Source: a virus. Taken from it: a stretch of DNA of 28,258 nucleotides. Position 1 is the stretch's first letter. Each line of letters begins with the position of its first letter. Shown here in pieces: positions 5,901 to 23,771 of this stretch. The stretch covers positions 1-28,258 of the IMG/VR virus record IMGVR_UViG_3300032893_001790. One strand, given 5' to 3'. Made by a program: the position numbers and the translations under genes. The notes under the pieces were generated by a model. That model had not been told where the DNA came from. It did not search any database and worked only from the letters and a program-made list of their open reading frames with translations.

Positions 5901-6016
5901 GACGCTGGTGGAACTGGTTTGGCCTGCGGTGTTGGGCGCGCATGTGCCCGTGCCGGATCAACTATGCGCGCAAGGTGACGTGCGCTGATTGCGGTCAGGT
6001 GAGGATGACATTTTGA
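5897..6016 (+). CDS. 39-residue Cys-rich small protein
   Basis: The start overlaps the stop of glycosyltransferase 2 (ATGA), and its own TGA overlaps the probable TTG start of glycosyltransferase 3, so it is tightly coupled on both sides. The peptide begins MRRWWNWFGLRCWARMCPC and ends with a CADCGQ knuckle: Cys-x-Cys followed about 15 residues later by Cys-x-x-Cys, enough for one zinc site. The Trp-rich N-terminus could be membrane-surface seeking. It may be a small partner of the glycosyltransferases. No family is recognised. Confidence 0.55.
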   Translation: MRRWWNWFGLRCWARMCPCRINYARKVTCADCGQVRMTF

Positions 6017-6924
6017 AAATCCTTTGGCTCACACCGTCCGATATGCTCTGCGAAGCTTATCATGGCTCGCTGACCTACCTCGGCCACAAGCCTGTGATGC
6101 ACTGGTACGACAAGCACGGGTCTCCGCCCGATCAGCGTATCCTTGATGCTGTTGATAGAGAGTCGCCCGATCTCGTGCTCTATATCGGACAGGCGGGAGG
6201 CGCCCACTGTGCCTCGCCTGATACGTTCCGTCGCATCCGGGATAAGGTTCCGATCGCTCTCCTCTGTCTCGATGCTTACGACATCGGGTGGGACAAGCTC
6301 CTAACCGAATACCGTGAGAAGGCGTGCTTTACCTTCACGGTCGCATGTGATGGAGGATGCCACAATCCGGCAAACGTTGATTGGATCGGCTTTCATCCGG
6401 TAGACCCGCGCCCCTACGCGAAACAGAAGCCTGTCCTAGAGCGCCCCATCCTCCTCGGCACATGCGGCGTCTTTGCAGGGCCGCGCAAGGTAGTGTTCGA
6501 TCGACTCGTGAGGAACTGCGGTATGGTGGTGAAGCCCCGTGAGGAGGTCTATGGCTCCTACCAGCGCTACGCGAACTTCCTGATGCAGTGCCAAATCGTG
6601 TTCGACTGCGCGCTATCGGCCGGTGGGGATGATGGAAGGGGACCGTATGCGAGGACGCTGAAGACGCGAGCGGTAGAGGTGGGGCTGGCAGGGGCTTGCT
6701 TGCTTGAGCTAGAGGGGTGCGCTCTGGGCAACTGGGCAAAGCAGGACTTGCATTGGGCCAGCTACGCATCCGCCGAAGACGCCGAAGAGATGGTGCGAAA
6801 CCTTCTTGAGGACGATACCGGCATCCTCAGGGATAATGCCCTTTCCCTCCAGCGCGTCGTGCGCCAAAAAATGTCACCCGAGATATTTTGGAGTAGGACG
6901 TTCGAGGCATGTGGTGTAGCCTGA
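6013..6924 (+). CDS. CgeB-like glycosyltransferase 3
   Basis: The best start is TTG 6013, placed by GAGG upstream and by alignment with its neighbour (MKILWLTPSDM versus MKVLWLAPSDM); it gives 303 residues. Another TTG at 5989 lies inside the previous gene. The N-domain is close to that of glycosyltransferase 2 (HWYDKHGSPPDQRILDA, VLYIGQAGGAH). The C-domain has a diverged donor motif, LKTRAVEVGLAGACLLELEG, keeping the Glu and Gly residues. The middle VNIDG motif is altered to VACDGG, which may mean another donor or acceptor. It ends the glycosyltransferase run and is followed by a strong terminator. Confidence 0.75.
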   Translation: MKILWLTPSDMLCEAYHGSLTYLGHKPVMHWYDKHGSPPDQRILDAVDRESPDLVLYIGQAGGAHCASPDTFRRIRDKVPIALLCLDAYDIGWDKLLTEYREKACFTFTVACDGGCHNPANVDWIGFHPVDPRPYAKQKPVLERPILLGTCGVFAGPRKVVFDRLVRNCGMVVKPREEVYGSYQRYANFLMQCQIVFDCALSAGGDDGRGPYARTLKTRAVEVGLAGACLLELEGCALGNWAKQDLHWASYASAEDAEEMVRNLLEDDTGILRDNALSLQRVVRQKMSPEIFWSRTFEACGVA

Positions 6925-7459: not shown

Positions 7460-8350
7460 CTACTTTCTAGCGGTTTTCTCGTTCTCGGCGTACCAATCGA
7501 TCGTCTCTTTCAGGCCCTGCTCCAGCGTATACTCCGGCTTGAATCCAAGGGCGGCGAGCTTGCCGACATCATAGGAGCGGTGCGTGTGCCCGAGAGGCTT
7601 GGTCTCATCCCACGTGATCGTGTCACAACCGGTGTAGGCTGAGAGGATGTTGGTCACGTCGCGGATCGAGTGCGTCTCCCCGGTCGCCATGTTGATCGGT
7701 CCCTCGCCCTTCTCCATGATCGTGACGAGCGCTCTGACAGCATCCTTGATGTACATGAAGTCACGGCGCTGAGAGCCGTTGCCCCATACCGTCACGTCGC
7801 GCTCGTGGAACTTGCGAACCAGTGACGGGATGACGTGTCCGTGCTCCTTGTCGAAACGATCGTGAGGGCCGTACATGTTCGTGCAGATCGGCATGGCCCA
7901 GTTGAGTCCGGAGACTTCAAGGTGCGCCAGCATGCCGCGCTTGGCCATAGCGTAGCCGTATTCGGCATCCGGCTCATCGCTCATGACCTCCTCCTCGCGC
8001 CAGCACCGATCGTAGCCCGGATACATCGCCACCGTGCCGAGAGCGACGACCTTCTTGACCTTGTGCTCGACGCATGCGGCGACGACGTTCGTGTTGATCT
8101 GGCAGTTGACCCGATACGCCTTCTCTTGATTCGCGAGGTTGCCCGCGATGCCGCGCACGAAACCTGCGCAGTGGAAGACATGTGTCGGCCGGTTGCGATC
8201 AAAAAAATCGTGCGTTTTGCTCGTATCGGCCCAATCCGGTGCATGCTCCCCAAGTACATGTGTGTACCGGCTGCACTGAAGATAATCGACGAGATTATGA
8301 CCTACGAAGCCGTACCCGCCGGTCACGAGAACCCGAATGTCTTTATCCAT
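7460..8350 (-). CDS. GDP-L-fucose-synthase-like SDR (Fcl/ColC group)
   Basis: This 296-residue extended SDR has the NAD(P)-binding motif TGGYGFVG at residues 10-17 and the catalytic Tyr133-x3-Lys137. The block TNMYGPHDRF...GHVIPSLVRKFHE contains His172, equivalent to His179 of E. coli Fcl. This block is characteristic of GDP-4-keto-6-deoxymannose epimerase/reductases and of ColC. The catalytic Ser-Ser-Cys of Fcl (SSCIYP) is replaced by Thr-Val-Ala (GTVAMYP, residues 105-111). The Cys used in epimerisation is therefore missing, and the enzyme may only reduce a 4-keto sugar. It follows the portal gene directly, so it is likely expressed late with virion genes. The family is sure, the exact product is not. 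Confidence 0.85.
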   Translation of the reverse strand: MDKDIRVLVTGGYGFVGHNLVDYLQCSRYTHVLGEHAPDWADTSKTHDFFDRNRPTHVFHCAGFVRGIAGNLANQEKAYRVNCQINTNVVAACVEHKVKKVVALGTVAMYPGYDRCWREEEVMSDEPDAEYGYAMAKRGMLAHLEVSGLNWAMPICTNMYGPHDRFDKEHGHVIPSLVRKFHERDVTVWGNGSQRRDFMYIKDAVRALVTIMEKGEGPINMATGETHSIRDVTNILSAYTGCDTITWDETKPLGHTHRSYDVGKLAALGFKPEYTLEQGLKETIDWYAENEKTARK

Positions 8351-8361
8351 GATATTCCCCG

Positions 8362-10038
8362 TTATTTGTGGTGCGAGCCGCCGTGCCCCTTTGTCAGCAA
8401 CTCAGGGTGCTGTTGAATAAGGGCGGCTTCAGCTCTTTTCTTTTCGGCGAGATGAGCTTTGAGCAAATCGCGTCTAGGTAGCGGGAGCAGGTCAATAATG
8501 TCCTCGCCACCGACAACCTGAAGCTTCGCCGCCAGCGCCGCCATCTGCAGGTAATCATCCTCGTAGATCGGCGAGGACGAGTGGCTATCGACGGTCACGC
8601 GGTAATCGTCCGGCAACTGCGCAAGAAGGAACTCATTGCCTTCCTTCATCACATCACCCGTCCAATATGCCTCGGCTTCCTTCGCGGCCTTCGCCTTGAA
8701 CACCTTGTCGCCGATATCCGCCACCTGTCGCTCGATGATCAGCGCCTTGTTGCGCATCGAGGGGGAGGCTGTCTTCATCAGCATCTGCGCGTGATTGCCC
8801 GCGCGGACCCCAGGCTCGCCCTGCCCCGAGAGCACGTTGTTGAAGCCTGAGATTTCGTCCATGAACTCGGTGATCTGCTTGATGTCGGCGAATGCCTCTG
8901 CCGGCATCGGCGGGGTCAAGTCCTCCACGCCAGAGCCAGGCTCAAGGTTCATGAACCCTGCCTCACGTGCCGTGTCGTAAAGCTCATCCGTCATGGTGGA
9001 CGTGCCGGTGATCGCTAGGAACCGATCGTATTGCAGGCTCATCAGCTTCTTGATGTCCTCCATCCGATCGCGGAGGAGCAACTGAAGCTTCTGGAGATCG
9101 ACGATCTCAGAACGTCCCCATACGTAGTTCGGCAGGCGGTTGCACTGTAACAGCGTGTAGGGGAGGACTTCGGGGACGAAGAGGTTCTTCTTGAGGAACC
9201 GCGGCGCGATCAGGATGTCGGGCTCGACGATCTGGATGGTGGTGTAGTCCTCCGTATCGTCGTCACGCACCCACAGCTCGTGGAACATCAGCATCTCGGC
9301 CATGACATCGGGCGAGAGTTCTGCGCCGGTCGGGTCCGACTGAACCTGTACCAAGCCGCCGGGCTGTGACGTGAAGGGCTGATCCGTTTGTACCAGCGGC
9401 GACGTGCCGGAGAGAAGCACCTGATGAAAGTACGATTGCGACTCATCGCTTCCGGCCTGCTTCTTCGCGTAGGCCATCGCGCGCCGCATGATATCGACGC
9501 GATCCGCCCGGTGTGAGATGCGCCGCCACAAATCCGATGTCGTAATGAACGAGGTCTCGCAAACCGCTTCCTGCTTCCCAAGATCGGCGATGTTCTCCTG
9601 ATAGACGCCGAACTGCCACGGCATCACCAGATTGCCCGAGATGCCGCCATGCTCATGCATGACCTTCAAGATGCACGCGCCCTGCTCCAGGGCGACGTTG
9701 ACGCCTTGCTGAATCTGCATGTCGATGTCGCGCCGCTCGATCTCGCGGGTGAGCGCGCGCGAGGCTGTCTCGGCCTGATCAAGAATCGTCTTCGGGTAGA
9801 TATGCGTGAAATCGATGTGGAAGCGCAGATCGATCGGGCTGAAGATCATGTCGGCCATGCGGTCGATATGGAAGTCCAGCCGGTTGACGATCGCGGTGTT
9901 CCCGTCCGGTGATCCCGTGTAGCGCCAGGTCTTCAGGTTGCGGGCATTCTGCGCGCGAGTGGCGGCAGAGACGCGGCAGTCATCGATGCGTGCTTTTGCC
10001 CATACGGCGAGTTTGGCGGGCTGGTCGGGAAGGATCAT
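8362..10038 (-). CDS. Phage portal protein
   Basis: The product has 558 residues, in the usual range for portals. The N-terminus (VAATRAQNARNLKTWRYTG-like region after residue 20) is helical. The central part mixes beta strands with long helices such as LQKLQLLLRDRMEDIKKLMS near residue 325. The C-terminal third carries the long helix and acidic/basic tail (HLAEKKRAEAALIQQH) typical of portal barrels. It shares a 4-bp overlap with the upstream zinc-ribbon gene and lies downstream of the terminase, the classic order. Portals diverge strongly, so the call combines length, architecture and position. Confidence 0.8.
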   Translation of the reverse strand: MILPDQPAKLAVWAKARIDDCRVSAATRAQNARNLKTWRYTGSPDGNTAIVNRLDFHIDRMADMIFSPIDLRFHIDFTHIYPKTILDQAETASRALTREIERRDIDMQIQQGVNVALEQGACILKVMHEHGGISGNLVMPWQFGVYQENIADLGKQEAVCETSFITTSDLWRRISHRADRVDIMRRAMAYAKKQAGSDESQSYFHQVLLSGTSPLVQTDQPFTSQPGGLVQVQSDPTGAELSPDVMAEMLMFHELWVRDDDTEDYTTIQIVEPDILIAPRFLKKNLFVPEVLPYTLLQCNRLPNYVWGRSEIVDLQKLQLLLRDRMEDIKKLMSLQYDRFLAITGTSTMTDELYDTAREAGFMNLEPGSGVEDLTPPMPAEAFADIKQITEFMDEISGFNNVLSGQGEPGVRAGNHAQMLMKTASPSMRNKALIIERQVADIGDKVFKAKAAKEAEAYWTGDVMKEGNEFLLAQLPDDYRVTVDSHSSSPIYEDDYLQMAALAAKLQVVGGEDIIDLLPLPRRDLLKAHLAEKKRAEAALIQQHPELLTKGHGGSHHK

Positions 10039-10553
10039 CCAATACCGCCGCCAAAATTTCCCTTCAAGGTGCCGCCAGCCGCAGACGGTGCCGCTCCACC
10101 CCCGCCTTGGATCGCCCGCAGTGCCGTGGCCCCGGAGCCGGACTTCCTACCTTGGTTGGCCAGCCCAATCACGTCCTGCGTGCTCAGACCGCCTGGCGCG
10201 ACGCCCGAGAAGCCGGGATTCTGCTGCATGTCGCTGACGATGGTTTTGTACTCTTTGCTCGGCTGTGGCGGCATCGCCGCTACGTCGCCCTCGCGGAGAT
10301 TGTCCTTGAGGTTCGTGACTTTCAGCGAGGGATCGCCCATCATCTCCGCATTGCGTGCCGAGGATTCCTCCAGCATGCGGTAGGTTGCATCGCCTGATCG
10401 TCCGAGCGGTGTGCTAATCGTGACCTTGGAAGGCACGAAGCCGTCGTCTGGGATGCCGCAGAAAGCGCCGCAAAGAGCGCAATAGTTGGGGAAGTCATCT
10501 CCCTCGTGAGTGAACTTCCCCCCGCAATCCGGGCAGCGAAGGCGGTATATCAT
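10035..10553 (-). CDS. Zinc-ribbon protein with Gly-rich tail
   Basis: This 172-residue protein has an N-terminal four-Cys zinc ribbon, CPDC at residues 8-11 and CALC about 16 residues later. A polar linker follows, and the last 40 residues are Gly/Ala-rich (RAIQGGGGAAPSAAGG). It overlaps the HNH gene by 4 bp (ATGA) and the portal gene by 4 bp, so it is translated with the head genes. Small Cys-ribbon proteins next to portal genes recur in phages but have no agreed function. It may be a structural or assembly factor. Confidence 0.65.
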   Translation of the reverse strand: MIYRLRCPDCGGKFTHEGDDFPNYCALCGAFCGIPDDGFVPSKVTISTPLGRSGDATYRMLEESSARNAEMMGDPSLKVTNLKDNLREGDVAAMPPQPSKEYKTIVSDMQQNPGFSGVAPGGLSTQDVIGLANQGRKSGSGATALRAIQGGGGAAPSAAGGTLKGNFGGGIG

Positions 10554-11023
10554 TTAGACGACCGTCTTTTGTTATATTCTTTGAAATAAGCGAGTCTCTC
10601 CGGTGTTCTCTTGCACGCTATACAATATCTTTGACCTCTCCACCAATATGTATTTAGTTCATCAAACGGGTGGCCATGTTTGCAATGAGTTTTCCGCGCA
10701 TTCTGCGCTGGTGCGCCAACGCCGCGAAGATTGTTCACCCTTTGAGTTACTGGCTCTAAATGGTGTGGGTTAACGCAACAACGCACCCGGCACTTGTGAT
10801 CAAGGTGCAATCCCTCGGGGATAGGGCCAACATTAAGCTCGTAAGAATACCTGTGTGCACCATACAGCAGTCTGCGACCAAAAGTGCTGATGCCGGAGAC
10901 GAAAAAAATGCCGTACCCCTTGCTAAGTGCGCCCGTCCAGAGCCAGCAACCGGAATTGGGCTCCGGAGAAACCTGAGCCCAAAAACGATCCTCGGGACGT
11001 GTCGTCGAACGCCGACCCATCAC
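10550..11023 (-). CDS. HNH endonuclease with C-terminal zinc knuckle
   Basis: The protein has 157 residues. The HNH_3-type core runs from the Trp-rich WAQVSPEPNSGCWLWTG through the core GLHLDHKCRVRCCVNPHHLE (His, Asn, His present) to N-x-x-R-G. A second zinc-binding segment follows with CKHGHPF and CIAC. A GTG start at 11023 overlaps the upstream TGA; ATG 11020 is an alternative. The 3' part is clearly more AT-rich than its neighbours (hand counts of 25 and 23 G+C per 60 nt at 10561-10680), a sign of later acquisition. It most likely is a homing nuclease; a packaging role near the terminase is possible but less likely. Confidence 0.85.
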   Translation of the reverse strand: MMGRRSTTRPEDRFWAQVSPEPNSGCWLWTGALSKGYGIFFVSGISTFGRRLLYGAHRYSYELNVGPIPEGLHLDHKCRVRCCVNPHHLEPVTQRVNNLRGVGAPAQNARKTHCKHGHPFDELNTYWWRGQRYCIACKRTPERLAYFKEYNKRRSSK

Positions 11024-11334
11024 GCAGGCGTGCCCGGTACGATTTCGACCGAGGTCAGCACTTGCGGCGCGGCAGCGATTGCAACGTCAAGCGTCGCGGT
11101 GAACGTCTTGCCGCCGGCAATTACCGTCAGCGAGAGCGTGTCCGTGCCCACCGTTGCCGCAAGCAGTGTCGCCGTCAGACCATCGGCCGCAACAGTGAGG
11201 GTGTTCGACGTGTCGCTCTGGGTCCAGGTCGGCGGCGAATCGGGCGTCACGAAGCTCTGCATCGGCTGGCCGTTCTGATCCAGCTCGGCAATCGACAGAG
11301 GCAGGGTCTGCCCGACATTCATCGAGGTCGACAT
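11020..11334 (-). CDS. Ig-like (Big2-type) domain protein
   Basis: The preferred start is ATG 11334, with GAAGGAG about 10 nt upstream, giving 104 residues. Almost the whole protein is one bacterial Ig-like fold: VGQTLPLSIAELDQNGQPM, a PPTWTQSDTSNTLTVAADG segment and LTATLLAATVGTDTLSLTV are the alternating strands of Big2 domains. There is no signal peptide. Single Ig-like domains in phages decorate capsids or tails and bind host surfaces or carbohydrates weakly. It lies between the terminase and the HNH gene. A capsid decoration role is plausible in view of the sugar genes, but this is inference. Confidence 0.75.
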   Translation of the reverse strand: MSTSMNVGQTLPLSIAELDQNGQPMQSFVTPDSPPTWTQSDTSNTLTVAADGLTATLLAATVGTDTLSLTVIAGGKTFTATLDVAIAAAPQVLTSVEIVPGTPA

Positions 11335-11435
11335 GATAATACGCTCCTTCTCGTTAAGGATGACAGAAACGCCGCGCACGGTAAAGATCACGTGGAAGCG
11401 ACGGCGACGATGACGCCGGATGAAGGGCCAGCATA

Positions 11436-13346
11436 TTACCATCGATACCTCGTCCCGCGCCGCACCGCGCGTGCCATCCTTGTACGCTCTCTCTGTTGCG
11501 CATTAAAGAACGACGAGACCAGCGACTGCGAAAACAGCTGCTGCATGTCCGCTTGCGATGCCGACTGCGTGCGCATGACCATCTCGCGGGTCATGCCGCG
11601 CGCCCGAAGCGACGCCCGCTCGCTGTCCTCGTAGCACTTGATCGCCAGCGCCATCGCCATGACCCGGTCATCCTGAGACGAGCCCGATCCGTGGATTGAG
11701 TCGCCTTCGCGCTCCATGGTCTGCATCTCGTCGATCAACGCGGCAGAGCGGAGCGATAGCTGCTTCAAGGTCAGCAGATCGCGGAAGCGTTCCATGATCT
11801 GCACCTTGTTCTTGATCGAGGTGATCCAGTGCACGCCCGAAGGGGCTTGGTGGATCGAGTCCTGCCGTGTGTACATGTACTGCCGCACGTGGTCGAAGAC
11901 GTGCGTCATATCGCCGAAGCCGTCGCCCGCCGGCAGAAGCCCCGCCTTCGCCATCGTCATCAACTCGCGGAAGGCATTCAACACTGCCGCGCCGGGACCG
12001 TTGATCTCCATCAGGAGACGGCATCGCCCGTCGCTTCCTCCGTAGACGCCGCAGAGATGCGCTATCACCCAGGCAAACTGAAACGTCGTCATGCGGACGG
12101 TGCAGAATTCCGCAACCTGCTCGATATAGTCGGCGTAGCAGCGGAGAACCTCCAAGCAGTACTGGTTTGAGTCCTCTGACGAGCCATAGGCCGGGTCGGC
12201 GCCGATGACATACACGCCATCGGGCTCCGGCTCCTTCCACACCTTCAGCTGCATCTGGCGCGGGACTTTGACCTGCTCGACCTGCGTTGACTCGAAGTGC
12301 TCCGACATGAAGTAGCGATAGCCCTTGTACGGATAGTTCCGCACCTCGCTCATCAGATCGGTCAGTCTCTCCGCCGAGAAGAACGGAGAGCCTGTCATGA
12401 TCCAGCTCTCTTCCTCGTACCAGGGCAGCTCCTGGCGCGTGATCTCGTCGCCCTCTTCCTCGCTCTCGCTGTCGTGGTCTACGTCGGGATCGAACTCATG
12501 GCGATACCACGCCAGTTGCTCCATCGTAACCTTGTGCCCGTAGCGCTCTTCAACGAGGTCGATCTTCTTTTGCTCCTCCTCGGTCGGCGGATAGGAACCG
12601 TAGCGCTCGAATAGCGCGGTGCCCTTCGCGTGCGAGTAGGACTCCTTCGCCCACCAGCCGATGAAGATCGCCTTCTTGGTGAGATCGTCGGCCTTCGCGC
12701 GGTTCCAGATCGGGTAGAAGGGATTGTTGAACCCGCGGGCCGTCGATTCCCAGATATACAGCCGGTTCGGATGCTGATCGGACAACGAGCGCTCGAATGC
12801 CTTCACGCCCTCCAGATCGCCCCAGGATGACACCTCGGTACACCCGGCCATGTTGGCGCCGCGACCGCGACCGAGGCCACCGGAGCCCTTGGACTTCTTC
12901 ACGCCCGCGACGTAGAACGAGACGCGCGAGCCGTTCTCGAATTCGAGATAATCGCGGTTGTCGCCGCCCTTCTTGGTGTTGATCGAGTGCGAGGCAGGAA
13001 GACGCTCAAGAAAGCCCTTGATCTCGGCGCGGGCCTCGTTGCGGTGACTGTCCGTGTCGTAGATCAGCGCGACGCGGAGTCCTTCGTGCATGAAGGCCCA
13101 GAAGACAATTAACATACGCACTACTGTAGAAATCCCGAGCTGGCGAGCTTTCAAGCAGACAAAGTAGTGGATGTCTTGCTCTAGGCCCTCGAACACCGCG
13201 TCGAGGAAGCGGTGCTGCGCCTCGTAGAACTTGACGGCATTGAAGCCCTCTTGGTCCTTCGAGACGATCTTGACGTGCTTCGCAAAGTCGAAGAATGCCG
13301 CCCGGAAAACCCGAACCTTGGCCTTATCCCACCCTTTTCCGGCCAT
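11436..13346 (-). CDS. Terminase large subunit
   Basis: This 636-residue packaging motor has an N-terminal ATPase with a Walker-A-like loop (CLKARQLGIST, residues 64-74) and a Glu in the TEVSSWGD segment as Walker B/catalytic carboxylate. The C-terminal RNase H-fold nuclease starts with the Asp motif YVIGADPAYG and closes with SQDDRVMAMALAI, the conserved Asp-Asp near the end. The basic C-terminus (RTRMARAVRRGTRYRW) fits contact with portal and DNA. Length and motif order match large terminases. No obvious small terminase lies immediately upstream; the 82-residue neighbour has a helical, charged N-terminus but no HTH. Confidence 0.93.
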   Translation of the reverse strand: MAGKGWDKAKVRVFRAAFFDFAKHVKIVSKDQEGFNAVKFYEAQHRFLDAVFEGLEQDIHYFVCLKARQLGISTVVRMLIVFWAFMHEGLRVALIYDTDSHRNEARAEIKGFLERLPASHSINTKKGGDNRDYLEFENGSRVSFYVAGVKKSKGSGGLGRGRGANMAGCTEVSSWGDLEGVKAFERSLSDQHPNRLYIWESTARGFNNPFYPIWNRAKADDLTKKAIFIGWWAKESYSHAKGTALFERYGSYPPTEEEQKKIDLVEERYGHKVTMEQLAWYRHEFDPDVDHDSESEEEGDEITRQELPWYEEESWIMTGSPFFSAERLTDLMSEVRNYPYKGYRYFMSEHFESTQVEQVKVPRQMQLKVWKEPEPDGVYVIGADPAYGSSEDSNQYCLEVLRCYADYIEQVAEFCTVRMTTFQFAWVIAHLCGVYGGSDGRCRLLMEINGPGAAVLNAFRELMTMAKAGLLPAGDGFGDMTHVFDHVRQYMYTRQDSIHQAPSGVHWITSIKNKVQIMERFRDLLTLKQLSLRSAALIDEMQTMEREGDSIHGSGSSQDDRVMAMALAIKCYEDSERASLRARGMTREMVMRTQSASQADMQQLFSQSLVSSFFNAQQRERTRMARAVRRGTRYRW

Positions 13347-13595
13347 TCATCGCCGCCCCATCCCCGGCACGCGAACGCCGCCGGCCTGGTCCTCGGCGAT
13401 CAAGTCCTGAATGCGCTGCGCTAGCGTCTTGTAGAAGGTCTGCGAGTCATCTGCCGCATCCATAGTGACGAAGGACACCGATGTCCCTGCGGGCGGGATG
13501 ATCAGCACGAAGGCCGACAGGTTCTCGTCCTTGAACTTCTCAAGGCGCGTAATCTGCTTCTGTAGCTCCTCGATGACCTTCTCGGCTTTGATCAC
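13347..13595 (-). CDS. Hypothetical 82-residue protein before the terminase
   Basis: The GTG start at 13595 overlaps the preceding TGA by 4 bp, and the stop abuts the terminase start. Residues 1-25 form an amphipathic helix (KVIEELQKQITRLEKFKDEN). A beta-like centre follows (AFVLIIPPAGTSVSFVTMD), then a second helix and a basic tail ending VRVPGMGRR. It occupies the place of a small terminase subunit, but no helix-turn-helix is visible. It may be a terminase accessory protein. Confidence 0.55.
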   Translation of the reverse strand: MIKAEKVIEELQKQITRLEKFKDENLSAFVLIIPPAGTSVSFVTMDAADDSQTFYKTLAQRIQDLIAEDQAGGVRVPGMGRR

Positions 13596-13888
13596 TTAAG
13601 AGCCTCGTCGATCGCTGCTTGGTAAGCCTCTTTCGCCATCGTCAAAGACCAGTCACGCGCTTCCGGCATGTGTTCAAAGAATTCTGCCTCAGCAGCCTGC
13701 ACCATCTCCTCGGTCGGCTCACGAGCAGCCCGCAACGCCTTCCGCGCCTCCCCGCGAGCCCAGTCGCGTAGAACCGCAACCTCATCTGCTGGGACAACGC
13801 GAAGTTCACAATGAACAAGTTGCGTCACGCGCTCTCGAAAATATTCAGGCCAAAGCGCCGTTGCGACGCGGTCAACCATCTCGCTCAC
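13592..13888 (-). CDS. Small conserved helical phage protein
   Basis: GTG 13888 overlaps the upstream stop (GTGA) and gives 98 residues. The frame continues upstream, but that part overlaps the preceding gene and looks non-coding. The sequence is helical with an SEMVDRVATALWPEYF start and a conserved-looking end, AREPTEEMVQAAEAEFFE...SLTMAKEAYQAAIDEALK. This resembles the common phage proteins that end in a Trp/Ala-rich AAIDA motif. Their function is unknown. Confidence 0.6.
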   Translation of the reverse strand: MSEMVDRVATALWPEYFRERVTQLVHCELRVVPADEVAVLRDWARGEARKALRAAREPTEEMVQAAEAEFFEHMPEARDWSLTMAKEAYQAAIDEALK

Positions 13889-14184
13889 TGCACGAACGTC
13901 CGACGAATGGTGTTTTCCATGCGATCGGCGGTCGCTTCCGCATCCTCCTTGTTCTCGAAAGGTGTCATGAGGATTTGCACGGCCCATGAGGGATAGGCCG
14001 GGTGCCCCTCCGGGAACTGCCCCACACTGACCGCGATGTCCGGCTGCACGATGCGCGCGCCCTGCTCCAGGTAGCGCTTGAAGCCGTCGCGGAAGCCCTT
14101 GACCGTGCCCTTAACGTCCTTGCGGACATCGCCCGTCTCGTTGTCGATCGTCGTCTCGCGCTTATCGATGACGGCTTTGACCAT
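13885..14184 (-). CDS. Hypothetical 99-residue protein
   Basis: The start ATG 14184 overlaps the stop of the radical SAM gene (TAATG), and its stop overlaps the next gene (GTGA). The product is mixed alpha/beta and hydrophilic: a Lys/Asp-rich start (VIDKRETTIDNETGDVRKD), a central SVGQFPEGHPAYPSWAVQIL segment and a helical end (EDAEATADRMENTIRRTF). No family is recognised. The two tight junctions show it is read with the sugar and head genes. Confidence 0.6.
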   Translation of the reverse strand: MVKAVIDKRETTIDNETGDVRKDVKGTVKGFRDGFKRYLEQGARIVQPDIAVSVGQFPEGHPAYPSWAVQILMTPFENKEDAEATADRMENTIRRTFVQ

Positions 14185-15656
14185 TACGAAATCTCCCCCG
14201 TCAACAGTTTCCGGGTTAATTTATATCTCAACATACCATTGATGTGATCGACTGTCGCCTCACCGAATTTCGCACGGATCATATCGATGTACTCCAGGCG
14301 GCTGTAGTAGCGCCGGAAAAATTCATCGCGGAAGGCAAGCACCTGCTTGCCGGTGACAAACTGCGTATCTAGCGGCCGGCAATCGGCGTTATGTTGGGAA
14401 AACCCGCTCCATGTCTTCGGCAGCGTCCAGCCCTTTTCAAGAGCCTCGTCGTAGAGCTTACTGCCAGGGTAAGCATGAGCACTGTAGACGTTCATGAACT
14501 CGCAGTTGAGTTCGGCCGCGAGTTGGTAGGTCTCTTCCATCGTCTCCATGGAGTCATCCGGCAAGCCTACGATGAAATTCCCGATGACGTTGATGCCCGC
14601 TGCCTGAATGGCGCGGACCACGCCGACGATATCCTCGTTGCGCAGCGCTTTATCCGAGCCATCACGGACATGTTTGCTCCCCGATTCGATGCCGAGCGCG
14701 AGCCATCGGATGCCGGCCTTACGGAACATCTCCAGTGTATGCGGCTTCACCGTATCGACGCGCGCGTAGGCCCAGATGTTGAGATCGTCGGGCAGATGGC
14801 CCGCTGCCTTGGCCTCGACCAACCCCTCGCAGATCGCCGTATAATGCCGCTCGTTCAGCACGAACATCTCATCCGCAATCTTGATCGTCCTGACACCGTA
14901 ATGCTCGTATAAATGAACGATCTGCGACACTACCTTTTCAGGCGATCTCATCCGGTATTTATTGACATGCTGGAATGTATTAATCATACAAAACGAACAT
15001 TTATGCGGGCAGCCAAGCGTCGTATAGATAGACGCGTAAGGCTGTCTCTTGGAGAGATCACCAAAACACTGCCATTGATGGGCTCTATACTTGTCCATCG
15101 GCAGCAAATCCCAAACATCGCCGCCGAGTTCGTCGATCGGGATCAACGGGGCGAGAGGGTTCCGGATGATCTTGTCATCCTGCCGCCAGACCAATCCCGG
15201 AATGTCCTTCGGGTCTTCATCATCGATCAGGGCTTTCAGAGAGATCGGCCCCTCTCCGTCGATGACGTAAGTGACCTGCTCCTCGCGCAGCGTCCTCTCC
15301 GGGAGCGCCGAGGGATGGTTGCCGAGCATGACGACGGTGGAGCGCGAGCAGCACGTGCGCAGCGCCTTGGCGATAGCGGAGGCGCCGACCATCTGCTGTG
15401 TGCTCGCTGACGGCTGGTGCCCCGAAACAACGATGCCGATGACCTTCGGTGTCCAGTGTGCCGTGCGCAATGCAGCGTGCAGCGGCGTCAGGTTCTCGGC
15501 TTCGGCATCGATGATGCGAACGAGATAGCCCCGATCGCGCAGCCACCCCGCAATCATGCGCGTCCATGTTGGGGGCTCTTTGGCGGTCAGATTATCGCCG
15601 AGAGGTCCGAAAATTCCGTGTTGAGCACCGGGATGAATCAGGATGATGTCGAGCAT
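14184..15656 (-). CDS. B12-binding-domain radical SAM enzyme
   Basis: ATG 15656 follows GGGAG by 7 nt and gives 490 residues; an upstream ATG at 15674 is less good. Residues 1-150 look like a cobalamin-binding Rossmann domain (LIHPGAQHGIFGPLGDN, VIGIVVSGHQPSAS). Cys216, Cys220 and Cys223 in LGCPHKCSFC form the CxxxCxxC motif that holds the 4Fe-4S cluster. The barrel continues through IKIADEMFVLNERHY, WAYARVDTV and ALGIESGS, as in BchE-type/class B enzymes. Such enzymes methylate or rearrange unreactive carbons, and several act on sugars and antibiotics. Within the sugar block, C-methylation is a reasonable guess. It is host-metabolism dependent (needs SAM and perhaps cobalamin). Confidence 0.85.
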   Translation of the reverse strand: MLDIILIHPGAQHGIFGPLGDNLTAKEPPTWTRMIAGWLRDRGYLVRIIDAEAENLTPLHAALRTAHWTPKVIGIVVSGHQPSASTQQMVGASAIAKALRTCCSRSTVVMLGNHPSALPERTLREEQVTYVIDGEGPISLKALIDDEDPKDIPGLVWRQDDKIIRNPLAPLIPIDELGGDVWDLLPMDKYRAHQWQCFGDLSKRQPYASIYTTLGCPHKCSFCMINTFQHVNKYRMRSPEKVVSQIVHLYEHYGVRTIKIADEMFVLNERHYTAICEGLVEAKAAGHLPDDLNIWAYARVDTVKPHTLEMFRKAGIRWLALGIESGSKHVRDGSDKALRNEDIVGVVRAIQAAGINVIGNFIVGLPDDSMETMEETYQLAAELNCEFMNVYSAHAYPGSKLYDEALEKGWTLPKTWSGFSQHNADCRPLDTQFVTGKQVLAFRDEFFRRYYSRLEYIDMIRAKFGEATVDHINGMLRYKLTRKLLTGEIS

Positions 15657-15811
15657 GCAGGCTCCCGTTTCCACACCAGCCCCTGGCGCACGGTGCGAAT
15701 GAGCGACGGCGTGACGCCGTAGCGATCGGCGATCTTATATGAGCTTTCCTGAGATGCTCGGATTTCCAGAACTGCTTTCCATGTCAATTTGGTGTTTGAT
15801 GGCCTAGGCAT
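15638..15811 (-). CDS. Stand-alone HTH module, homologous to HNH tail
   Basis: ATG 15811 overlaps the stop of the HNH gene by 8 bp and gives 57 residues. The core TKLTWKAVLEIRASQESSYK...IADRYGVTPSLIRTVRQG matches the C-terminal part of the HNH protein just upstream (VKLTWNIVDQIRSSQETSSS...LGMHHSTICYIRKG). It is the DNA-recognition HTH that normally follows HNH domains, here on its own. It may be a leftover of a second HNH gene or a small DNA-binding protein. It overlaps the radical SAM gene start by 19 bp. Confidence 0.65.
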   Translation of the reverse strand: MPRPSNTKLTWKAVLEIRASQESSYKIADRYGVTPSLIRTVRQGLVWKREPACSTSS

Positions 15812-16298
15812 TGCGAGTTTCCTCCCGCCAAAGTTTGCCCTTCCGAATGTAGCATATCGTTGAGTGGTGCATTCCAAGCCGCTTCGCCCAAGATGACGAA
15901 GTTTCTTGGCTAGAGCGAATTTGATCAACAATATTCCAAGTTAATTTTACCATTGGGTGCTTCTCGCCAGGCTTTGACTTGGCGGGTCCGTTCGTGCGTC
16001 CCTTGGCAGAACAATCCATCATGTTATCTTTTGGCGTACCTAGAAACAGATGGCTAATGCGACAGCAAGCAGGATTGTCACAATGATGTAAAACCCACAA
16101 GCCATCAGAGATGGGGCCGTTAGCCTGTTCCCAAGCGACGCGATTGGCCCGAAAAATCTTGCCCTCTATGTTGATCTCCCCATATCCGTGATGGTTGTTA
16201 GGCTTGTCCCATTCCCAGCAACCATCACCGATCAATAGGTGACCCAATAACCTTACCCTAGGAGGCCCCTTTATATAATTTCTCTTAGACGTTTGCAT
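15804..16298 (-). CDS. HNH endonuclease with C-terminal HTH
   Basis: This 164-residue homing-type nuclease has an N-terminal CWEWDKPNNHHGYGEI segment, the HNH core LWVLHHCDNPACCRISHLF and the following Asn in GTPKDNMMD, then a C-terminal HTH (VKLTWNIVDQIRSSQETSSS, near residues 117-160). Its coding sequence is much more AT-rich than the operon around it (23 G+C in the 60 nt from 15901). It overlaps the second SDR by 14 bp. The AT-rich stretch runs on into the 3' half of that SDR gene. Confidence 0.85.
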   Translation of the reverse strand: MQTSKRNYIKGPPRVRLLGHLLIGDGCWEWDKPNNHHGYGEINIEGKIFRANRVAWEQANGPISDGLWVLHHCDNPACCRISHLFLGTPKDNMMDCSAKGRTNGPAKSKPGEKHPMVKLTWNIVDQIRSSQETSSSWAKRLGMHHSTICYIRKGKLWREETRNA

Positions 16299-17226
16299 AA
16301 ATAGAATTCCTCAGCATCGGATACAAAACCAACAATTCCTTAATACCATCATCTATCGTCTCAATAGGAGCCCAGCCAGTTGCCTCCATCTTGGCATTTG
16401 AGACAATATAATCCCTCTTGTCTTCATCATTTCCTATAGGAGCTTCCAGATAAACAAAATCAGAAACGTATTCTTTTATTTTGGCGCATAGCTCCAATTT
16501 AGTCATATTGGCATCGGTACGCCCGACATTATAAATGTTCCCCTTCATTCTGCCAAATTCTGAGATGGCATGGCAAAAAGCGCGCGCCACATCAGAGACA
16601 TGAACAAAGTTTCGGCGAAAGTGACCCTCGAATATAGTGATCGACTTATCATTGACGGCTCGCCAAACAAATTCGTTGACTAAGAGGTCGAGCCGCATGC
16701 GAGGGGAGGGGCCGAACACCGTTGCGAGGCGGAAGGCGATCGAGTTCTCGCGGTCCATCACGATCTGCTCGGCTTCGGCCTTGGTCTGGCCGTAGAGCGT
16801 CAGCGGACGGAGCGGGCTCTCCTCCGTGCACAAATCCTCGCCGCCGATGCCGTATCCTGAATTGGTGTTCGGGAAGATCACCCGCTGCTCCGGGCTGAGC
16901 AGACCGCAGAGATTGGCGACGGCATGACGGTTCGTACTGATCGCCGCCGACTGGTCGCGCTTGCAGGCCGGCGCTCCGACGATCGCTGCGAGCGGAATGA
17001 CCACGTCCGCTTTTGCGACAAGCGGCGCCACAATCGACATATCGCGCGCATCACCGTTGACCGCTTCGAAGTTGCGGTATCGCGCGCACGCTGCGAGGCT
17101 GTTCTGATTGTGAGCAAAGTGATCCAGTACCGTCACGCGATCGATGCCGTGATTGCGCTTGAGAAGCGCGGGGACGAGGACGGAGCCAAGGTAGCCCGCG
17201 CCGCCGGAGATGAAAATGTTTGTCAT
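16285..17226 (-). CDS. NAD-dependent sugar epimerase/dehydratase (SDR)
   Basis: This 313-residue extended SDR has SGGAGYLGS at residues 7-15 as the dinucleotide-binding loop, a Thr/Ser site in FPNTNSGYG, and the catalytic Tyr145-x3-Lys149 (LYGQTK). The C-terminal substrate region has GPSPRMRLDLLVNEFVWRA and RRNFVHVSDVARA, typical of nucleotide-sugar epimerases. It probably acts on the same nucleotide sugar as the PLP and TPP enzymes upstream. The gene is a composition mosaic: the 5' part is about 63-67% G+C by hand count, the 3' part from about 16660 down only about 33-43%. The substrate cannot be assigned. Confidence 0.85.
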   Translation of the reverse strand: MTNIFISGGAGYLGSVLVPALLKRNHGIDRVTVLDHFAHNQNSLAACARYRNFEAVNGDARDMSIVAPLVAKADVVIPLAAIVGAPACKRDQSAAISTNRHAVANLCGLLSPEQRVIFPNTNSGYGIGGEDLCTEESPLRPLTLYGQTKAEAEQIVMDRENSIAFRLATVFGPSPRMRLDLLVNEFVWRAVNDKSITIFEGHFRRNFVHVSDVARAFCHAISEFGRMKGNIYNVGRTDANMTKLELCAKIKEYVSDFVYLEAPIGNDEDKRDYIVSNAKMEATGWAPIETIDDGIKELLVLYPMLRNSIYANV

Positions 17227-17633
17227 TAAGAAATCGCTCTTTTTGCAGCATTCCAGAATGAGTCGTTGATGTCAGAAATTTGCTGTCTAATCTTCTGCTC
17301 CACCGTTCGGTCTGCGTCGTCCCTCATACGCTGCATCGTTGCTTTCCATGAAGGAGATGGCGATTTAAGGATATATAAATCGATATCTATCGGCTGAGTC
17401 ATCAGCGCCATCCGGCGCTCACGTTTTTGATAAAGAGCGTCAAGAAGACTGTGAAGATGCCGCGTATCCGGCCCCTCAGACGGCGCCCCTAACGTATTGC
17501 CGCCGTAATAATCAACCGCCTGAGTAGCCGGGCCCAAGCCGGGAGAATACGTCTTCGCCATCTCAGCGCCCACCGTCCGCGCAGCGAATGGCGCCGCCAG
17601 AATACCGCCCAACACTCCCCGTCGCGATGCCAT
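17226..17633 (-). CDS. Hypothetical 135-residue protein with RR N-terminus
   Basis: The start overlaps the upstream stop (TAATG) and the stop is adjacent to the SDR start. The N-terminus MASRRGVLGGILAAPFAART has the look of a Tat-type signal (twin Arg, then Ala/Gly/Leu-rich), although the hydrophobic part is short. The rest is hydrophilic and helical, with QPIDIDLYILKSPSPSWKAT in the middle and KIRQQISDINDSFWNAAK at the end. It may be a phage structural or membrane-bound protein rather than an enzyme. No family is recognised. Confidence 0.55.
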   Translation of the reverse strand: MASRRGVLGGILAAPFAARTVGAEMAKTYSPGLGPATQAVDYYGGNTLGAPSEGPDTRHLHSLLDALYQKRERRMALMTQPIDIDLYILKSPSPSWKATMQRMRDDADRTVEQKIRQQISDINDSFWNAAKRAIS

Positions 17634-17794
17634 TACGGTATCTCCAACCTATCCAATAAACGATTGACCCACCAATCGAGCACCTTGCCTCCGGCCCAGA
17701 CGACGGCAAAGAAGAGCCCGAGATACGGCACGCCGCAATACGTCAGGAGGGCGGAGGCGAGTAATACGCCCAGGATTTCAAGCACCAGGATCAC
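17633..17794 (-). CDS. Small membrane protein, 53 residues
   Basis: GTG 17794 overlaps the stop of the PLP enzyme gene (GTGA). The frame is open further upstream, but that part lies inside the PLP gene and looks like a shadow. The peptide has one long or two short membrane segments (LVLEILGVLLASALLTYCG and LGLFFAVVWAGGKVLDWW) and a charged C-terminus (NRLLDRLEIP). The role is unknown. Confidence 0.6.
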   Translation of the reverse strand: MILVLEILGVLLASALLTYCGVPYLGLFFAVVWAGGKVLDWWVNRLLDRLEIP

Positions 17795-18927
17795 AGGGTT
17801 TTCTTCATGATCTCTATCGCCTTGCGCATCTGCGGCAGAATGTCGAACGGGGCGAGGCCGAGGAAAAGCGCGGTATCGTGCAAGCGATCGGCGGTTGGCG
17901 TCGATTGATTCTGCCACCTCAGCGAATAGGCGTGCCGTAAAAAAGAGCCGCCAGTAGGCAAGCGACAATCGATGCCGCCAGCACGGAGAGCATTAACAAG
18001 ATTGGTGCGCGCATCCCGACTCTCCACGCTGAACGCAATCCCGAACGGCGATGGTATCCCCGGCAGGTTGCGCTTCTGCATCTCGATCGGCAAGCCCTCC
18101 GCAAGCACAACGAAGTTGTTCAGGTTCTGCTGCCGTGCTCGGCGCATCTCCTCCAGCTTCGGCAACTGCGCGCGTGCGATGGCAGCGTGCATCTCAAGCC
18201 AGCGGAGATTGTACCCCATCAGGACGAAGTCGTATTCGTGATCGAAATCCTTCGCCGGCCCGATACCACGCGTCCACCCATGGTTCCGGATCATACGGCA
18301 GAGATCAGCCAACTCATCATCGTTGGTCAGGATCATACCACCTTCGATGGCGCTGATCTGGTGGCTGTAGAAGAACGAGAATGTGTTCAGCAGCCCGAAC
18401 GTGCCGCAGCGCTGAAGATCGCCCATCGTGCCAACCTGGGCGCCCAGGCTTTCACAATTGTCCTCGATGAAGTAGGCGCCGACGTAATCGGCGATGCGCT
18501 TCCAATCGCGCAGATAGGCGGGGTTGCCGAGGATCGAGCAGCCGAGGATGAGCCTGCAATCATGCGCGAGCGCGGTGACCGGCTTGGCATTCCAGGTTTG
18601 GTCACAGTCGGCGACGACGAGATCGAGGCCGTACTGCACAAGAGGGGCATATGTCGTGGCCCACGCGATGGCCGGGACAAGCACCTTGTCGCCGGGCCGC
18701 AAGGAGTTCTCCTGCTTGTGACAGAGCGCGGCGACGGCCACTAAGTTCGCGCTCGATCCAGAATTCACGGCGATCCCATGTTTCATGCCATGATAGGCGG
18801 CAAATTCCTCCTCGCATGCGGCGACTTCGGGACCTTGCGTCCATTGGCCGGAGGCGCGCACGCGGTCGATCGCGGCGTACTCTTCATCATCCCATTTCGT
18901 GTAGGCGCATGCGTAGGTGTAGGTCAT
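17791..18927 (-). CDS. DegT-fold PLP sugar 3-dehydratase (ColD/RfbH type)
   Basis: ATG 18927, in a TGATG overlap, with GGGGGA 4-6 nt upstream, gives 378 residues. The fold is that of DegT/DnrJ/EryC1 enzymes: NSGSSANLVA at 55-64 binds PLP phosphate, and Asp156 in the block FIEDNCESLGA pairs with the PLP nitrogen. The key point is NTFSFFYSHQISAIEGG at 181-197: the usual Schiff-base Lys is His189. Lys-to-His is the mark of ColD (GDP-4-keto-6-deoxymannose 3-dehydratase) and of RfbH/E1. The enzyme should therefore remove a C3 hydroxyl from a 4-keto-6-deoxy nucleotide sugar rather than transaminate it. Length fits ColD (about 390). No reductase partner of RfbH is seen, which favours the ColD mechanism. 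Confidence 0.85.
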   Translation of the reverse strand: MTYTYACAYTKWDDEEYAAIDRVRASGQWTQGPEVAACEEEFAAYHGMKHGIAVNSGSSANLVAVAALCHKQENSLRPGDKVLVPAIAWATTYAPLVQYGLDLVVADCDQTWNAKPVTALAHDCRLILGCSILGNPAYLRDWKRIADYVGAYFIEDNCESLGAQVGTMGDLQRCGTFGLLNTFSFFYSHQISAIEGGMILTNDDELADLCRMIRNHGWTRGIGPAKDFDHEYDFVLMGYNLRWLEMHAAIARAQLPKLEEMRRARQQNLNNFVVLAEGLPIEMQKRNLPGIPSPFGIAFSVESRDARTNLVNALRAGGIDCRLPTGGSFLRHAYSLRWQNQSTPTADRLHDTALFLGLAPFDILPQMRKAIEIMKKTL

Positions 18928-19076
18928 CAATCCCCCGTCATCACGAAATAGATCACGTAGAGCCAACTACAGATACCGTATAAGATGGCCCACAAGACGC
19001 TATGCCACTTCGCATACGACAGCACCATTGCGAGAGCGCTACCGAAACCGATGCCGCCACTTGCCGTGGCCTCCAT
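18927..19076 (-). CDS. Small membrane protein, 49 residues
   Basis: The start overlaps the E1-beta stop and the stop overlaps the PLP enzyme start (both TGATG), so it is locked into the operon. An N-terminal Gly/Ser segment (MEATASGGIGFGSALAMVLS) is followed by a hydrophobic, Trp/Tyr-rich segment (SVLWAILYGICSWLYVIYFV), probably two membrane helices. Similar small proteins of the SWxYVIY type are common in phages and bacteria, with unknown function. Confidence 0.65.
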   Translation of the reverse strand: MEATASGGIGFGSALAMVLSYAKWHSVLWAILYGICSWLYVIYFVMTGD

Positions 19077-19594
19077 CAGTAAAGCCTCGCGTATTCGATG
19101 AGCAGCGATGATCCCTTCCGATCGATCGCTCTCTGATAGGCTGGCACAATCTGCTCTGCGCCCATCAGGCATTCGACGTGCACGGTGGAGCACATGGAGC
19201 GGAGTGCAAGAGAGTAGTCGCCCAAATGCTGCGCGCCTGGGTCCATCGGCTTGTCATGCGCCACGGCGGTTCGGATGATCACGCGCGGGCGGTAGTCGCT
19301 GTAGAGCGGAATCTTGTCGAGATGGTTGCAGAGTTGATTGATAGCGAGGAGAAGGAAATTTTGGCGCGGGTAACAGGTGATCGGAAGTCCACCGGCTAGA
19401 CTGACGCCGATCGCATGACCCATCTGCATTTCTTCTGCGACGGGAAACTCTAGAAGCTTGTCGAGAGGAATATGATCAAGCGTTCCCCGCATAGCCGTGC
19501 CAGCGCAAGCAACTGCCTGGCCCGTGATGATCGATCGAGGCTGAGCAGCGCAGAGGCTCATGGCCTCGCGCAGGGCGTCAACGTAAGTACTCAA
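19076..19594 (-). CDS. TPP-dependent E1-beta-like (pyrimidine-binding) subunit
   Basis: A TTG start at 19594 overlaps the E1-alpha stop (TTGA) and gives 172 residues. This is only the pyrimidine-binding domain of transketolase/PDH E1-beta proteins: LLEFPVAEEMQMGHAIGVSL holds Glu54, the residue that activates the TPP aminopyrimidine. A Leu/Ile-rich stretch (RQNFLLLAINQLCNHLDK) follows, as in the family. The C-terminal transketolase domain (about 120 residues) is absent. With the E1-alpha-like partner it should form a small TPP enzyme. In avilamycin synthesis, comparable E1-alpha/beta pairs add a two-carbon branch to a deoxysugar. Confidence 0.8.
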   Translation of the reverse strand: MSTYVDALREAMSLCAAQPRSIITGQAVACAGTAMRGTLDHIPLDKLLEFPVAEEMQMGHAIGVSLAGGLPITCYPRQNFLLLAINQLCNHLDKIPLYSDYRPRVIIRTAVAHDKPMDPGAQHLGDYSLALRSMCSTVHVECLMGAEQIVPAYQRAIDRKGSSLLIEYARLY

Positions 19595-20196
19595 AATTGC
19601 ACGCGGACCCCGGCGCCCGAATGGGGGTAGGGCAGACTGTAGCTATACTCTCGAAAATGGTACTCAGCCGGATCGTAGCAATACGTTCCGCCCCAGGTGA
19701 TCTGCGTATCAGTGCAAACCGATTTGCCGTTGCTCTCGACGATGAACCGAACCGGCAGATTCTGCCAAGTCGCGTACTTAAAGCATTCGTGGAAAATGCC
19801 GGTCTCAAACGTCATGTCACCTAGGAAGACATGCGTCTTCTCACCTCCGCCCCGCCTCTTCGTTTCCCATGCAATCCCGAGAGCAATCGGCAAGATGCCA
19901 CCGACGATGGCCGAAGAGACGATGCGGAATTTTGGGAAGTTGAGCGTAATCGAGTGCCCCGCCATGATCGCGGCTTTCAGCTCGTCAGGCGGAACGCCGC
20001 GCAAGAGACAATGGTAATGGGAACGCCAGTTCGTGCAGACCCAATCATCGGGACCGACATCCTTGAACACGTCGATCAGTTGGGCCTCATTGTTTCCGTG
20101 CAGGTGCACGGGATAGGGGATGCGGCCCTGATTAAAGAGGTCCGCGATCTCGCTCTCGAATGCACGCAGGGTTTCGGGCGTGTGAGAGGTGATCAC
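19591..20196 (-). CDS. TPP-dependent E1-alpha-like subunit, compact
   Basis: GTG 20196 overlaps the XRE gene stop (GTGA) and gives 201 residues, against about 320-360 in classical E1-alpha. It keeps the N-terminal substrate channel (PDDWVCTNWRSHYHCLLRG), the IVGGILPIALGIAWETKRRG helix and the TPP-Mg motif FLGDMTFETGIFHECFKY...LPVRFIVESNGKS. There Asp127 and Asn156 are the metal ligands, with GDG altered to GDM and NN to SN. The C-terminal part of the usual domain is missing. It pairs with the E1-beta-like protein. The likely role is two-carbon (ketol or acyl) transfer in sugar biosynthesis; central-metabolism decarboxylation is unlikely without E2. Confidence 0.82.
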   Translation of the reverse strand: MITSHTPETLRAFESEIADLFNQGRIPYPVHLHGNNEAQLIDVFKDVGPDDWVCTNWRSHYHCLLRGVPPDELKAAIMAGHSITLNFPKFRIVSSAIVGGILPIALGIAWETKRRGGGEKTHVFLGDMTFETGIFHECFKYATWQNLPVRFIVESNGKSVCTDTQITWGGTYCYDPAEYHFREYSYSLPYPHSGAGVRVQF

Positions 20197-22281: not shown

Positions 22282-22299
22282 CTGATGTCTCCCCCTTAT

Positions 22300-22374
22300 T
22301 GGACGAGCGCGCGAGAATCGAACTCGCTCCTCGCGGTTTTGCAGACCGCCGCGTTCCCACTTCGCCAGCGCTCG
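22300..22374 (-). tRNA. tRNA-Cys (GCA anticodon), CCA encoded
   Basis: All arms are visible on the minus strand. The acceptor is CGAGCGC with GCGCTCG. The D arm has GCG/CGC. The anticodon stem GCGGT/ACCGC encloses loop CTGCAAA with GCA. A 5-nt variable loop follows. The T arm is GCGAG/CTCGC with loop TTCGATT. The discriminator is U, the Cys identity base, followed by an encoded CCA. The acceptor and T stems are perfect. It lies 18 nt upstream of the start of the DUF6745-like gene and 7 nt from the end of the Ser-rich gene. Confidence 0.93.
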
Positions 22375-22381
22375 GCTTCGC

Positions 22382-22603
22382 TTACCATGAAACGTCCGTT
22401 CCTCCAGACGAGGTATCGGAGGATGCGCCGCTGTCGTAAGACACTCCGCTATCCGAAGATGAACTGACTTCACCACCGGAAGCGGCCGAGCCCCACGAGA
22501 GGTCGATTCCGCCGCCAGAGGATTGCGAAGATTCATGACCGCTACTAGAGGTCGCACGCTCCTCAACAATCGTCGTCGTGGTATGGTTGCCGGCCAAAAT
22601 CAT
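22382..22603 (-). CDS. Ser/Gly-rich 73-residue protein
   Basis: ATG 22603 follows GGGGAGGGTGAG directly, an excellent ribosome binding site. The first 15 residues are ordinary ([15 protein letters not shown]). The rest is low-complexity Ser/Gly with Asp and Trp and ends in GGTDVSW. Such sequences are probably unstructured. It lies just upstream of tRNA-Cys on the same strand. No family is recognised. Confidence 0.6.
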
Positions 22604-23699: not shown

Positions 23700-23741
23700 G
23701 TGCACGAGGATTGCTTTGATCGGTGCAGGAGACATGCATGC

Positions 23742-23771
23742 AATATAGGTGCACAGCATGTGTGGGGTCAA
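23742..23771 (-). promoter_or_regulatory. Sigma70-type promoter for minus-strand operon
   Basis: On the minus strand TTGACC (23766-23771) and TATATT (23742-23747) are separated by 18 bp. The predicted start of transcription falls at about 23735, just before the HNH gene. The palindromic GTGCAC lies in the spacer, as an operator might. Confidence 0.55.

Follow-up and report, generated by a model that had tools for sequence, protein, structure and literature searches.

Six genes lying between positions 7460 and 20196 of the linear IMG/VR virus record IMGVR_UViG_3300032893_001790, which was analysed over its whole length of 28,258 bases (the window), are read here, with a probability that we put at roughly 0.6, as a phage-borne cassette for the tailoring of guanosine diphosphate (GDP)-heptose. 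They encode a compact thiamine diphosphate (TPP)-dependent E1-alpha/E1-beta pair, a DegT-family pyridoxal phosphate (PLP) enzyme, two short-chain dehydrogenases/reductases (SDR1 and SDR2) and a B12-binding radical S-adenosylmethionine (SAM) enzyme. All six are present where the initial annotation of this DNA had placed them, as intact open reading frames (ORFs) on the minus strand whose family matches agree with the names given and whose key residues are kept. Oxidation at C4 and deoxygenation at C3 are the well-supported steps, predicted by homology and with a published in vitro precedent; the transfer of a two-carbon (C2) unit, what the radical SAM enzyme does, how the final steps follow one another, the acceptor and the use of the sugar are matters that we infer. 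The end product is most likely a GDP-3-deoxy-heptose, on which the E1 pair probably puts a carbon branch and the radical SAM enzyme probably makes another change.

The starting sugar is indicated by SDR2, for which 6VO6/6VO8 was the sole match in the PDB at E≤1e-25 (358 bits over residues 3–312, 53% identity over 311 columns); the profile match to the Cj1427-type structure had an E value of 1e-130. The PDB title of these entries reads just 'putative sugar-nucleotide epimerase/dehydratase', and we take them to be Campylobacter jejuni Cj1427. The text of PMC10680097, in which that enzyme is described, gives no PDB code. SDR2 is predicted to be a GDP-heptose C4-dehydrogenase of the Cj1427 type. 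That SDR2 is a 4,6-dehydratase is rejected on this assignment and on the sequence NTNSGYG, which stands where the acidic pair of a dehydratase such as RmlB or GMD would be. Cj1427 yields GDP-D-glycero-4-keto-lyxo-heptose, which the HS:5 PLP C3-dehydratase converts in vitro to GDP-D-glycero-3-deoxy-4-keto-threo-heptose (PMC10680097). Because SDR2 is of the Cj1427 type and near relatives of the cassette carry gmhA, hddA and hddC, the precursor is most likely GDP-D-glycero-D-manno-heptose and not, as had been proposed, a nucleoside diphosphate (NDP)-4-keto-6-deoxyhexose of the host, a start that is not supported. SDR2 would itself supply the 4-keto group, so that neither a 4,6-dehydratase nor a 4-keto-6-deoxyhexose is needed; the absence of a 4,6-dehydratase from the window, remarked on from the outset, stands and is explained by C4 oxidation.

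A profile of the PLP enzyme, made from the window protein and three phage relatives at 53–56% identity and searched against the PDB, scored 324 bits with ColD (2GMS), 155 bits with RfbH/E1 (3BCX) and at most 125 bits with aminotransferases. His replaces the Schiff-base Lys in the window protein (H202) and in all four close relatives. The scores of 324 versus ≤125 bits and the catalytic His rule out an aminotransferase, and the enzyme, which groups with ColD, is predicted to be a ColD-type 3-dehydratase, as first annotated; the His189 then named is correct counting from the ATG at codon 14, and the same His becomes number 202 when the TTG at 18966 is taken as start. The DegT genes on the same strand as the E1 pair and within 1 kb of it were all of the His type (32/32, none with Lys), compared with 6/30 His and 24/30 Lys in baseline DegT loci from 15 E1-bearing cellular genomes (Fisher p = 6e-12), a value that, uncorrected for the kinship among loci and with a ranked sample as baseline, is indicative only. 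Lys-type DegT genes do occur, in a few cases, at greater distance from the pair (loci L089, L083 and L029). Genomic context points to GDP-4-keto-heptose rather than GDP-4-keto-6-deoxyhexose as the probable substrate.

When aligned with GDP-L-fucose synthase (1BWS), SDR1 keeps the Ser/Thr-Tyr-Lys triad (T106, Y133 and K137) and lacks the epimerase dyad, A108 standing for C109 and D167 for H179. In GDP-L-fucose synthase C109 and H179 form the dyad for C3/C5 epimerization, which the C. jejuni heptose C4-reductases have lost wholly or partly (Y/R in MlghC, T/H in DdahC; PMC7949155). Because the triad is kept and the dyad lost as in those reductases, SDR1 is best read as a putative GDP-fucose-synthase-like 4-keto reductase. 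It lies outside the conserved core of the cassette, and a copy at 50% identity is found in the nearest relative (G017).

Dereplication left 74 viral and 22 cellular E1-alpha loci, 96 in all, in which co-occurrence was assessed. The core five, namely E1-alpha, E1-beta, the PLP enzyme, SDR2 and the B12 radical SAM enzyme, were found together in 20 of these, 17 viral (the window included) and three cellular, all bacterial. As the core five recur together in this way, the grouping exceeds chance, and action of the five enzymes in one pathway is supported. The expectation that the genes travel together elsewhere was thus borne out; of the joint route to an unusual sugar that had been drawn from them, the common pathway is supported, the hexose substrate is not, and the C2 branching is a proposal. 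Of the same loci, 34 had a Cj1427-type SDR2 gene, 34 a His-type PLP gene (strict motif) and 36 a B12 radical SAM gene; HddA occurred in 21, HddC in 14, GmhA in 18 and an HldE-type kinase in 24. The neighbours, identified by NCBIfam and the PDB, comprise hldE kinase, gmhA, hddA, hddC, rfaE domain II and gmhB; most fall under the NCBIfam curated cut-offs and are therefore relatives, not certified equivalogs. HddA, HddC and GmhA occur in sister cassettes (L009–L013, L021, L095/G016 and L039/G017), and the last of these, the nearest phage relative, has the order E1-alpha, E1-beta, GmhA, PLP, SDR2, B12 radical SAM, HddC, HddA, together with SDR1 and several tandem transferases. Relatives of the window terminase were present in only 3/20 other cassette-bearing viral records, and relatives of glycosyltransferase 2 in 12/20. 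Cassette and transferase thus move between unrelated phages, and this suggests a phage transferase as the user of the sugar. A separate phage cassette of gmhA, E1-alpha, E1-beta and a SPASM radical SAM gene was also seen (L054, L059, L064, L069, L072, L073, L076, L082, L087, L088 and L090), mostly with an hldE-type kinase and in some cases with rfaE domain II.

The E1-alpha and E1-beta ORFs share 4 bases. E1-alpha matches PF00676; E1-beta matches Transket_pyr under the Pfam cut-off, and its profile matches E1-beta chains of pyruvate dehydrogenase (PDH). Both subunits match phrog_34187, a family with no assigned function in which alpha and beta are fused. Foldseek placed the AlphaFold models (pLDDT 94.8 for E1-alpha, 95.9 for E1-beta) with the E1-alpha and E1-beta of PDH and branched-chain 2-oxoacid dehydrogenase (BCKDH), the best match of E1-alpha being human PDH E1-alpha (TMq 0.82) and E1-beta chains ranking first for E1-beta. 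In an alignment with human E1, D127 and N156 of E1-alpha are the Mg2+ ligands at the 29-residue spacing of human D167/N196, and R58-x-H60 of the invariant R58-x-H60-Y61 is the E1-alpha R-x-H motif; in E1-beta, E54 is the catalytic Glu and Q122-H123 the QH motif. H60, E54 and H123 are invariant, and D127 nearly so, in alignments of 77–81 relatives. For the roles of the human residues, and for the placing of those in E1-beta, we assume what is established knowledge of the family. With all of these residues there, sequence and models indicate that the pair keeps a complete TPP site, in line with its initial assignment. E1-beta stops after the PYR domain, without the transketolase C-terminal domain. 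A single-sequence E1-alpha query against viral contigs proved too narrow and gave no matches; with an alignment query in its place, the family was confirmed in at least 591 of 599 scanned IMG/VR stretches, and it is sparse in the cellular genomes retrieved (at least 22 loci). A tblastn search of plasmids returned ordinary PDH-type E1-alpha only, at ~34% identity or less among the matches listed, and no description of the compact pair or of the cassette was found in the open-licence literature.

Transfer of a C2 unit to a 4-keto sugar is the reaction that we favour for the pair, because sequence and fold are of the 2-oxoacid E1 type and because the strict pairing with His-type dehydratases repeats the yersiniose order; we would give it slightly less than an even chance. 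In yersiniose A synthesis, similarly, 3-deoxygenation of a 4-keto sugar is paired with a TPP enzyme, and the phage TPP genes adjoin that for a His-type dehydratase; YerE, a TPP flavoprotein, consists of one chain and has a hexose as its substrate, whereas the phage has a two-subunit E1-type enzyme that probably acts on a heptose. A wider and still more tentative suggestion is that the pair represents an uncharacterized TPP lyase class, spread mainly by phages, that C2-branches GDP-3-deoxy-4-keto-heptoses and with the radical SAM enzyme builds an as yet undescribed sugar of the nonose type, to be put on virions or on the infected cell.

Several observations weigh against the GDP-heptose reading. 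The window has no gmhA, hddA or hddC, and GDP-heptose must therefore come from the host or from an unsequenced part of the phage. A recognizable heptose gene lies within reach of 51/74 viral and 17/22 cellular E1-alpha loci, not of all, and the radical SAM enzyme reaches the curated cut-off of no NCBIfam family (the closest being HpnJ and BchE). About a dozen E1-alpha/E1-beta loci, moreover, adjoin gmhA, an hldE-type kinase and a SPASM radical SAM gene and are without a PLP or Cj1427-type gene, so the reaction of the pair may be an earlier or a different one. The pair might instead be a mini-transketolase that makes a heptulose phosphate (e.g. sedoheptulose-7-phosphate), from which GmhA would lead into the heptose pathway, and the cassette would then give an unbranched GDP-3-deoxy-heptose. 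This would suit some ten phage loci in which the hldE kinase, gmhA and the pair lie together, the cyanophage fusions, whose neighbours include genes for a kinase, a nucleotidyltransferase and phosphoheptose isomerase, and the gmhA placed between E1-beta and the PLP gene in L039/G017. We nevertheless consider such a role unlikely, since sequence and fold are nearest to 2-oxoacid dehydrogenase E1 and not to transketolase, and most core-five cassettes are without gmhA yet keep the E1 pair, which His-type dehydratases flank. A plain transketolase is ruled out by the lack of a Transketolase_N (PF00456) match in the pair, by the R-x-H motif and by the presence of a transketolase of their own in 19/22 cellular carriers, and the same three points count against a mini-transketolase.

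The radical SAM enzyme can be assigned, from its sequence, only to the class of B12-binding radical SAM proteins. Its scores against NCBIfam were 166.5 bits for HpnJ (cut-off 577.6), 151 for BchE (481) and 66 for AprD4 (500), and against the PDB 59 bits for AprD4. The diverse chemistry of these nearest families, and the imino-acid decarboxylase AzcB/AzcC as the nearest solved compact two-subunit TPP fold, would be in keeping with some change of GDP-heptose other than C2 branching (loss of carbon dioxide from an added unit, contraction of the ring or formation of a carbocycle, for example); the likeness to AzcB/AzcC is, however, weaker than that to PDH E1, the radical SAM similarity is far under all cut-offs, and we hold this to be distinctly unlikely. 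It is improbable that the substrate is GDP-4-keto-6-deoxymannose of the host, giving a branched 3,6-dideoxyhexose of the yersiniose type: ColD does act on that compound, SDR1 is GDP-fucose-synthase-like and the window is without a 4,6-dehydratase, but SDR2 is 53% identical to a GDP-heptose oxidase, heptose kinase, guanylyltransferase and isomerase genes stand beside the cassette elsewhere, and SDR1 is without the GDP-fucose-synthase dyad.

Relatives of the radical SAM gene carry inteins or intein-like inserts. In L006 (8829–11261) and L008 (13426–15858) it is broken by an intein (PF14890) exactly at the second Cys of CxxxCxxC, so that the enzyme can bind its iron-sulphur cluster only once spliced, and in L070 (946–3357) an intein-like insert stands directly ahead of the third Cys of the cluster motif (CSF|CLREGTT...VHN|CCIN). 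The same catalytic motif is thus hit at two different intein sites.

In the GDP-heptose tailoring that we propose, SDR2 would oxidize GDP-heptose at C4 by Cj1427 chemistry, and the ColD-type enzyme would take off the C3 hydroxyl to give GDP-3-deoxy-4-keto-heptose. The compact E1 pair would then most likely take two carbons from pyruvate or another 2-oxo acid and add them to the ketone, following YerE/AviB logic; the B12 radical SAM enzyme would alter the sugar again, perhaps by C-methylation, SDR1 would reduce a keto group that remains, and phage glycosyltransferases would attach the sugar to the virion or cell surface.

The cassette resembles the GDP-heptose pathways of C. jejuni in its Cj1427-type oxidase, its ColD-like 3-dehydratase and its GDP-fucose-synthase-like reductase without the epimerase dyad. 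In C. jejuni the oxidase belongs to one serotype and the 3-dehydratase to another, the two having been brought together only in vitro (PMC10680097), whereas in the phage they are neighbours in one cassette; the phage adds the TPP pair and the B12 radical SAM enzyme, neither of which is among the C. jejuni enzyme types named in the abstract of PMC10680097. AviB1/AviB2 and Pau11/Pau12 are likewise E1-alpha/E1-beta pairs with PP and PYR domains tied to a 4-keto sugar, and the C2 branching in avilamycin and paulomycin is itself described as proposed (PMC4425429, PMC4753412). Pau11 and Pau12 have 325 and 345 aa (PMC4425429), the phage subunits 201 and 172 aa with no E1-beta C-terminal domain, and the parallel with AviB1/AviB2 drawn in the initial annotation, while it holds for the two subunits and the complete TPP site, fails for subunit length and amounts at most to an analogy of function. 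Among cyanophages, the 'transketolase central region' proteins (S-SM2, P-TIM68; phrog_34187) have the same compact domains, with ~40% identity in alpha, and lie near sugar-activation genes, but are fused into one chain of 380–400 aa, and neither a PLP gene nor one for a B12 radical SAM enzyme was seen within 9 kb of them; the cyanophage lipopolysaccharide clusters have been noted as of unknown function (PMC3037559). The cassette is a variant of known GDP-heptose pathways, with a so far uncharacterized compact TPP enzyme as its most notable part. It ties a widespread phage TPP family, phrog_34187, to GDP-heptose chemistry and presents in nature an oxidase and 3-dehydratase pairing earlier only assembled in vitro. 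Should the pair indeed branch heptoses, it would be a new TPP enzyme class of use for making rare sugars, and a portable set of glycan genes common to unrelated phages would be suggested.

Table 1. Coordinates of the sugar genes and of other features of the window
Feature	Position	Strand	Remarks
E1-alpha	19591–20196	−	201 aa, GTG start, compact PP-domain TPP subunit
E1-beta	19076–19594	−	172 aa, compact PYR-domain TPP subunit
DegT-family PLP/pyridoxamine phosphate enzyme, predicted ColD-type 3-dehydratase	17791–18966	−	H202 / H189
SDR2	16285–17226	−	matches 6VO6/6VO8
HNH endonuclease between SDR2 and radical SAM genes	15804–16298	−	PF13392
B12-binding radical SAM	14184–15674	−	PF02310 + PF04055, CPHKCSFC motif
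Terminase large subunit	11436–13346	−	
SDR1	7460–8350	−	Epimerase family, best match GDP-fucose synthase
CgeB-like glycosyltransferase 1	3595–4641	+	PF13524; relatives in cassette contigs; may use the sugar
CgeB-like glycosyltransferase 2	4608–5900	+	PF13524
Glycosyltransferase-like protein 3	5989–6924	+	38% identity to glycosyltransferase 2, its paralogue; without own Pfam match

In minus-strand direction the genes run E1-alpha, E1-beta, PLP enzyme, two small ORFs, SDR2, an HNH gene and the B12 radical SAM gene, followed by small ORFs, the terminase, another HNH gene, a protein of 558 aa (no Pfam or PHROG match) and SDR1; ~6 kb of packaging genes part SDR1 from the other five sugar genes. The stretch from 7460 to 20196 takes in the terminase, HNH endonuclease and small ORFs as well, none of which belongs to the pathway; the HNH gene that separates SDR2 from the radical SAM gene is a mobile passenger. 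Three HNH endonuclease genes in all were seen on the minus strand of the window (10550–11023, 15804–16298, within the sugar cassette, and 23163–23897). The left end of the window codes for a major-head-like protein, and the three glycosyltransferase-like genes form a plus-strand tandem (3595–6924). The terminase region had no match to known phages by blastn. In G017, the contig of L039, the relative of the window terminase (27054–30056, minus strand) consists of two matching parts in one 1048-aa frame, a split suggestive of an insertion in frame, which may be an intein.

A protein encoded at 2737–3447 (plus strand), whose HxD...H pattern calls to mind Fe(II)/2-oxoglutarate oxygenases and which has no Pfam or PHROG match, was found again close to the cassette in L006, L008 and L040. 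Immediately upstream of the cassette there is often a conserved viral protein with the motif LPTLSDLxDRLTIxQLKxxFIPxxR (L035, 7292–7753, and 17 further viral loci). The window also encodes, on the minus strand, a DUF6745 protein (21070–22569), with a long run of short repeats ahead of DUF6745, and a tRNA-Cys with anticodon gca (22300–22374).

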